Source of the DNA: a virus
Virus record (IMG/VR): IMGVR_UViG_3300009151_000001
Span: 1 to 64,000 of that record
Reading direction: 5' to 3' (one strand)
Length of the DNA stretch: 64,000 nt
Shown: one piece after another, positions 58,071-59,199 of the stretch
Layout: every line of letters begins with the position of its first letter
How positions within the stretch are numbered: position 1 is the first letter of the stretch
Position numbers and translations under genes: made by a program
The notes under the pieces: generated by a model
The model's database searches: none
The model's input: the letters and a program-made list of their open reading frames with translations, nothing else
What the model was told of the DNA's origin: nothing

Positions 58071-58096
58071 AAAAGGAGATCTACTGATCTCCTTTT
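58071..58096. terminator. Bidirectional terminator between convergent operons
   Basis: Perfect 11-bp inverted repeat AAAAGGAGATC / GATCTCCTTTT with a TACT loop, right between the plus-strand late genes and the minus-strand genes. The stop codon of the minus-strand gene lies within the left arm and loop. Confidence 0.9.
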
Positions 58097-59199
58097 ACTT
58101 CAAAAGGATGTTTCATGATAAAACAATCCTGTGGTTGATCCGTGTGTTTTTTAAAGCCGTTAATATAGCTTTGTATATTTGTAGATCCAACTGGATTATG
58201 TGAATGACAACATGCTTTCCAAGATAATAAAGTTTTATACTCATTTTCTAAAATACTGATATCAGGAATAAAAAATGGATGTCTAAATTTATAATCTATA
58301 TTTGGTTGTAAAATAGATGGTTTTGTAATAGGTAAATCATTAGCATTTTTCCATATAAAACCTTTACTTGTTTTATATAAATTTCTTGCACAAGCTCTTA
58401 TTGATGAAGCACTAAATCCTAGTTGTCTAGCAGCTTCTTCACTACTACCATAAACGTCAATTAAGTTATTATTAATATCATATTGAGCTATTGGTATACT
58501 AATAGACGTATTTTCAGAAACTCTGCTTCTTTTTTTTGGTCTTATATTATTATTTATAGCATGTTCATTATTTTCTTTAGATGTACACCATTCTAAATTA
58601 CTCCAATGATTATTCCATCTATTCCCATCTATATGATTTATTTGTGATTTATTATCAATATTAACAATAAACGATTCAGCAACAAGTCTATGAATCTTTT
58701 TTCTACTTTTATTACCATTACCATCATATAATGTTACCATTAAACCAGTAACTGATTTATCAGGTTTAAGAAAAGCATTTGTCTTTCCATTTTTTTTATT
58801 ATATCCTTTATGAATAATTCTTCCAAAATTAGATACTTTATAAATAGATTCATAACCAGGTATGTCTTTCCATACTTCTTCTGTATATAATAATCTTTTC
58901 TGACAATGTTCTACTAACCAACGCGCGCAATCTAGTCCGGTTTTTTCTTTATACTGTCCATAGTTAGGATGTTGAAATCCTTCTATCATAAGTTGTTTGT
59001 AATAGTCATCCATATGTTCCTGGGCCAGGTCATGATCAAAAGAGATCAGATCTGGTATACCGTTTTTGGATATGTATTCTACAAACTCATCATAGTTTCT
59101 TACAACATTCCATGGATGATATCCGGGAATAGTAGTGGTTGGCGTACGCGTATCATCGAGGTAACAACACTTTTTTAATTTTTGATTTTCTTTATCCAT
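58081..59199 (-). CDS. cREC (cyclic-phosphate receiver-like) protein interrupted in frame by an HNH homing endonuclease
   Basis: A 372-aa chimera. Residues 1-103 are a cREC-type receiver domain: LDDTRTP (D15, D16), LISFDHDL (D55, D57) and KTGLDCARWLVEHC. Normally CHSxNPVG follows after some 10-15 residues; here CHSHNPVGSTNIQSYINGF comes only at 331-349. In between are a NUMOD4 domain (WKDIPGYESIYKVSNFGRI, 110-128), an HNH region (INHIDGNRWNNHWSNLEWC, 187-205), a NUMOD1 repeat (IAQYDINNNLIDVYGSSEEA, 237-256; FIWK at 281-284) and a spacer of about 45 residues. The frame is kept, with no intein blocks visible. The start overlaps the upstream stop. Confidence 0.82.
   Translation of the reverse strand: MDKENQKLKKCCYLDDTRTPTTTIPGYHPWNVVRNYDEFVEYISKNGIPDLISFDHDLAQEHMDDYYKQLMIEGFQHPNYGQYKEKTGLDCARWLVEHCQKRLLYTEEVWKDIPGYESIYKVSNFGRIIHKGYNKKNGKTNAFLKPDKSVTGLMVTLYDGNGNKSRKKIHRLVAESFIVNIDNKSQINHIDGNRWNNHWSNLEWCTSKENNEHAINNNIRPKKRSRVSENTSISIPIAQYDINNNLIDVYGSSEEAARQLGFSASSIRACARNLYKTSKGFIWKNANDLPITKPSILQPNIDYKFRHPFFIPDISILENEYKTLLSWKACCHSHNPVGSTNIQSYINGFKKHTDQPQDCFIMKHPFEVKGDQ
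58348..58872 (-). mobile_element. HNH homing endonuclease core inserted into cREC gene
   Basis: The NUMOD4-HNH-NUMOD1 order is the standard layout of free-standing phage homing endonucleases, but here it lies inside another reading frame without its own stop. The exact borders are unclear: the interruption may extend from about 58212 to 58900. Confidence 0.75.

Follow-up and report, generated by a model that had tools for sequence, protein, structure and literature searches.

An HNH endonuclease in frame within a phage cREC gene, probably an unspliced domain-insertion fusion

The stretch of viral DNA analysed here, hereafter the window, comprises 64,000 nucleotides (positions 1 to 64,000 of IMG/VR record IMGVR_UViG_3300009151_000001) and carries close to its end a gene for a receiver protein of the cREC family (PF20274) that is interrupted, without loss of reading frame, by a homing endonuclease of the I-HmuI type. 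The explanation that we favour, with a probability of roughly 0.7, is that this gene encodes an unspliced domain-insertion fusion, in which a NUMOD4-HNH endonuclease and a tail of 40 residues lie in frame within a loop of the phage cREC protein.

An endonuclease within the cREC reading frame

A sequence-only reading of this DNA had proposed that a cREC gene is split by a NUMOD4-HNH-NUMOD1 endonuclease across an unbroken frame, and the domain composition and homologues of the open reading frame (ORF) bear this out. Pfam recognizes cREC_REC at residues 13-100, NUMOD4 at 108-131, HNH_3 at 168-211 and NUMOD1 at 235-271. The YLDD, SFDHD and HSxNPxG motifs of the cREC family are all present in receiver order; residues 332-366, from HSHNPVG onward, align as the C-terminal third of cREC, and the stretch HSHNPVG...CFIMKHPF aligns with the C-terminus of uninterrupted homologues. 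NUMOD4, an HNH motif with its catalytic His and Asn, and NUMOD1, the components of I-HmuI-type enzymes, are likewise complete, and I-HmuI (PDB 1u3e) is the only significant relative of solved structure identified by sequence. The parts of the gene are as follows.

58081..59199 (-): chimeric ORF of 372 codons, open throughout (cREC N-half, HNH insert, spacer, cREC C-half)
58894..59199 (-): cREC N-terminal part, residues 1-102, with beta1 (YLDD), beta3 (SFDHD) and helix alpha3 to ...HCQKR; from Pfam PF20274 (E 6e-17) and alignment with uninterrupted homologues
58887..58899 (-): border repeat, copy 1, AAAAGATTATTAT; 11 of 13 positions identical to copy 2 (chance 1.3-1.9%)
58231..58893 (-): inferred insertion of 221 codons (663 nucleotides), counting one TTATTAT repeat copy; from the gap in length (240 versus 20 residues) and the 221 codons from repeat to repeat
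58345..58881 (-): I-HmuI-like endonuclease, residues 107-285, own start codon absent by codon scan; related to PDB 1u3e by sequence (E 1e-12) and by fold (E 1.4e-12), and ending where its free-standing relatives end (residue 285)
58807..58878 (-): NUMOD4 motif (Pfam)
58567..58698 (-): HNH catalytic motif INHIDGNRWNNHWSNLEWCT, with H189, N197 and N201 kept (Pfam HNH_3)
58387..58497 (-): NUMOD1 DNA-binding helix-turn-helix (Pfam)
58225..58344 (-): spacer, residues 286-325, part of the insert, for which no relatives were found in the searches described below
58224..58236 (-): border repeat, copy 2, AAAACTTTATTAT
58081..58224 (-): cREC C-terminal part, residues 326-372 and stop, with beta4, the HSHNPVG motif and the last helix; from alignment with homologues and the helix and strand order restored in the structural model

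The interruption becomes evident when the gene is set beside its relatives in other viral contigs, from which 86 cREC loci were collected and the distance between the EKTGxxC and HSxNP motifs flanking the insertion point was measured. This distance is 20 residues in 76 loci, 21 in five, 25 in one and 26 in another, so that 83 of the 86 are uninterrupted. One further locus ends at a contig edge, and a distance of 240 residues is found only in two sister contigs (L001 and L002, relisted as L050 and L053) that are 98% identical to the window. These sisters, recovered from different metagenomes, show no difference over 9,089 bp; the chimera thus occurs in three contigs and two alleles, which excludes an accident of assembly and confirms the in-frame endonuclease within the cREC gene as a real observation. 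The interrupted lineage is sampled by these two alleles only, which differ within the insert by a single synonymous change in 684 nucleotides, and the sporadic distribution of the insert among cREC loci fits homing.

The endonuclease does not have its own start codon: from codon 91 to codon 153 the frame contains no ATG, GTG or TTG, and the ATG at codon 154 would drop NUMOD4. Translation of the endonuclease therefore depends on the host protein. Among the 80 best HNH matches in viral contigs, 79 belong to other phages, and nearly all of these have their own start, their open frames beginning at or shortly before the HNH gene. Only in L149 is the frame open for 100 codons upstream, with an ATG at the start of its HNH gene, and in none of these 79 nearest relatives is the endonuclease embedded in a larger gene. 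A different arrangement is known from the ShiLan domain of mycobacteriophage DNA methylases, an unspliced insertion that keeps the host frame open while hiding an HNH gene in another frame (PMC11855218). A hidden ORF of this type was ruled out here: the insert is open throughout in one frame, the other frames are open for at most 52 codons, and in place of an out-of-frame endonuclease with its own start and stop at the borders, the HNH domain is found in the host frame.

Borders of the insertion, origin of the spacer and predicted fold

Alignment with uninterrupted homologues, which the sequence-only reading had put forward as the way to fix the borders, indicates a gain of about 220 residues with the loss of one codon only. 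The uninterrupted locus L032 reads CQK-MKVSL-KACC-V-HSHNP, and the window reads CQK-RLL...LLS-WKACC-HSHNP. The two copies of the imperfect direct repeat at the insert ends lie 221 codons apart, and joining across them yields CQK-RLLSW-KACC-HSHNP, the native linker length less the V codon. This join and the net gain of 220 codons (221 - 1) together place the insertion at about 58231-58893, its loop position in the cREC gene being TTATTAT/AAAGCATGT. The border repeat may represent a target duplication or microhomology.

A spacer of about 45 residues had been noted between the endonuclease and the second cREC half. The spacer is present, but it measures 40 residues and belongs to the insert rather than to native cREC. 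The GC content at third codon positions (GC3) falls from 0.31 in the N-half to 0.08 in the HNH part and 0.07 in the spacer and rises again to 0.21 in the C-half; since the spacer thus resembles the HNH part and differs from both cREC halves, we take it to have come with the endonuclease. No relatives of it were found in viral contigs or phage records, a direct search of 13 phage genomes recovered it only in the window's own genome and the two sisters, and it has no match in Pfam or PHROGs; a spacer without endonuclease, the pattern held to speak against the proposal, was looked for in the same contigs, records and genomes and was not found. A native cREC extension was accordingly ruled out as the source of the spacer, both by the absence of relatives in viral contigs, phages and related genomes and by a codon bias that is that of the HNH part. 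The spacer resembles the cREC C-terminus (HPFFIP versus HPFEVK) or a YYTPDIS gene only weakly (tblastn E 1.7 or worse), and the YYTPDIS gene lies near cREC in L001, L036, L038 and L055. In L001 (3529-4002), a gene of 157 residues (MENKYYTPDISDLHIGYECEW...) that the window lacks stands between the upstream ORF and cREC; it has relatives in L036, L038 and L055, and its start is weakly similar to the insert spacer (FFIPDIS...).

The fold of the chimera, a prediction of which had also been proposed, was modelled with AlphaFold2 from aligned cREC and HNH relatives. Both folds are predicted, with a mean predicted local distance difference test (pLDDT) of 79.8, values of 89-96 in most HNH blocks and 84-90 in the strand and helix of the C-half. 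In the model, residues 290-315 are disordered and are followed by a helix (314-325), then by a cREC strand (328-331) and helix (336-352). In the model of the intact homologue L009, alpha3 (89-103) and beta4 (109-113) flank the insertion point, which places the insertion in the predicted alpha3-beta4 surface loop, and the order of secondary structure in the fusion model is that of the intact protein. Foldseek relates the endonuclease lobe to I-HmuI and the remainder, weakly, to receiver domains; the match of the intact homologue model to receiver domains is itself weak (best E 2.6e-3). Of the 66 positions invariant among seven intact homologues, the fusion retains 59, three of the seven losses falling in the linker, and the retention of active-site residues suggests that the host cREC enzyme still works.

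Under the fusion hypothesis, the endonuclease would be made only as part of the host cREC protein and would form a separate lobe, the disordered tail predicted by the model closing the loop and letting the cREC halves meet. At the loop position of uninterrupted cREC genes the fusion would introduce a nick or a break, recombination repair would then copy the insert in, and the insertion, by destroying the target site, would protect its carrier. cREC has been proposed to process cyclic phosphates in conflict systems that involve NAD and RNA repair (PMC7824862). A host gene with such a role may be dispensable, in which case even an awkward insertion would be less costly.

Splicing, decay and the case against a fusion

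The sequence-only reading had reported neither intein blocks nor obvious group I intron signals, and none emerged from Pfam, NCBIfam or Rfam. Of the two outcomes that it had left standing, a fusion that folds is now preferred over an unrecognised splicing element, given that the insert is mostly coding, that it has no start codon and that AlphaFold models both cREC halves confidently. We nonetheless weighed a group I intron whose ORF would be in frame with the upstream exon and whose RNA core would overlap the HNH coding sequence and the spacer. Enzymes of the I-HmuI type are commonly intron-encoded (1u3e), the top NCBIfam match of the insert is 'group I intron endonuclease', albeit below the cut-off, and the RNA of the region folds somewhat better than shuffled sequences. 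Against this, Rfam reports no intron in the window or the insert, even at E values up to 10, and the insert of 663 nucleotides is nearly all coding, leaving some 10-20 nucleotides before the HNH domain and 120 after it for an intron core. Pairing of GACTA with TAGTC is typical of the P7 helix of group I introns; no such pair occurs in the insert, and neither a P3-P8 core nor a guanosine-binding P7 was thereby detected. The frame is moreover open across the spacer, which in shuffles happens by chance in about 1.7% of cases. Taken together, these data render a group I intron unlikely. A group II intron finds no counterpart either, as neither a domain V nor a reverse-transcriptase ORF or long RNA was detected with Pfam and Rfam.

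To much the same low degree, we entertain a decaying insertion, in which the endonuclease would have killed the cREC gene and the open frame would have yet to decay. The carriers are two alleles of a single lineage, their inserts differ by one synonymous change, and a conserved residue beside HSxNP is missing. Neither allele, however, contains a stop or frameshift, the identity of the cREC part to its relatives (59-68%) is like that among the relatives themselves (62-72%), the catalytic motifs are kept, and it would have to be by coincidence that the insert joins cleanly and in frame at a surface loop. More doubtful still is that the insert constitutes a minimal, undescribed self-removing element, acting on RNA or protein, in which the 40-residue tail and the short border repeat would replace an intron core or Hint fold and whose removal would restore cREC. 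Least credible is an unusual protein-splicing element that would be excised after translation with ligation of the cREC halves, for although an in-frame position at a fixed site and the lack of a start codon are as in inteins, neither Pfam nor NCBIfam finds a Hint or intein family (Hint fold blocks A, B, F and G), the roughly five residues from the border to NUMOD4 are too few for an N-terminal splicing domain, and the terminal His-Asn before Cys, Ser or Thr is absent.

Several observations weigh against an unspliced fusion. The Rfam test is only moderately sensitive: the SPO1-type intron from Bacillus phage Goe9, run as a control, gave a sub-threshold group I match (24 bits, E 0.014), and the silence of Rfam is therefore moderate, not strong, evidence. 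The stability of the folded region (z -2.25 relative to shuffles) leaves some room for RNA structure, and the orientation of the lobes in the model is uncertain (predicted template modelling score 0.57). The residue missing before HSxNP is a conserved V or I located beside the active site. Finally, that the insert has diverged so little between sisters is not exceptional for these genomes, 8% of equal windows being as conserved; hence, recent homing is not claimed from the single difference in 684 nucleotides.

Genomic surroundings and comparison with known systems

Over most of its length, the window is about 98% identical to the sister genome G001. Across positions 32373-58092, compared with L198/L199, the large ORFs diverge strongly, to 82%, then 69%, then nothing alignable, and similarity sets in again without transition at 58093, in the final few codons of the cREC-HNH gene, which thus marks a boundary of genetic exchange. 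Three consecutive giant ORFs of 2731, 2257 and 2246 residues occupy positions 36347-58067; the phage collection contains no match to the first, and no Pfam domain was recognized in the last. The crAss-like affiliation assumed in the sequence-only reading was not confirmed, three structural or giant proteins having no match in that collection. In L009 (1448-2575), directly upstream of an intact cREC gene, a GIY-YIG-type endonuclease ORF is followed by an ORF of 126 residues similar to the C-terminal half of dNMP kinase, and the kinase gene has probably been split by a homing endonuclease. In L011 (2360-3010), another GIY-YIG-type endonuclease ORF overlaps the start of intact cREC, which suggests that the cREC neighbourhood has been visited repeatedly by homing endonucleases. 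The annotation of Dulem virus 42 (L111:812-2590) divides the major capsid protein into two parts separated by an HNH endonuclease, which probably reflects an intron or a split gene.

Endonuclease genes usually spare their hosts through self-splicing, in introns and inteins, or through an intergenic position. If true, the fusion proposed here would represent a third route, in which an endonuclease without a start codon occupies a permissive loop in frame and shares the expression and fold of its host unspliced, and it would point to a way in which inteins and domain-insertion enzymes may originate. Phage genes annotated as 'HNH endonuclease' may accordingly be disguised host enzymes, and vice versa. 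The phage NUMOD4-HNH-NUMOD1 enzymes typified by I-HmuI share sequence, fold and catalytic motif with the insert; I-HmuI, however, is encoded in an intron, and the related phage enzymes, either free-standing or intronic, measure about 165-195 residues and have their own start. In fungal mitochondrial rps3, as cited in PMC5626475, a homing endonuclease is likewise joined to the gene of a host protein without being part of an intein, with a different endonuclease class, an organellar context and another fusion position.

Among open-licence PubMed Central papers, the closest precedent found is ShiLan, and a closer one may exist elsewhere. There too an HNH endonuclease lies in an insertion that keeps a phage gene open, no intein or intron was detected, and the insertion was proposed to stay in the host protein and, by looping out, not to disturb it. 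The ShiLan HNH gene, however, is in another frame with its own GTG start, so that the host carries meaningless sequence (PMC11855218), whereas the present one shares the host frame, lacks a start and would form a folded domain within the fusion. Mobile endonucleases also split phage genes, as in nrdA/mobE of phage Aeh1 and gene 60/39 and mobA of T4; these resemble our case in placing an HNH endonuclease inside a phage enzyme gene without any splicing element, and the nrdA enzyme still works, but the host is there cut into separate polypeptides that reassemble, as opposed to the one continuous polypeptide seen here (PMC2988022). The present arrangement thus differs from both ShiLan and Aeh1 in that the HNH endonuclease itself forms the domain in the host frame and the host chain continues uninterrupted; it is unusual but not entirely without precedent.
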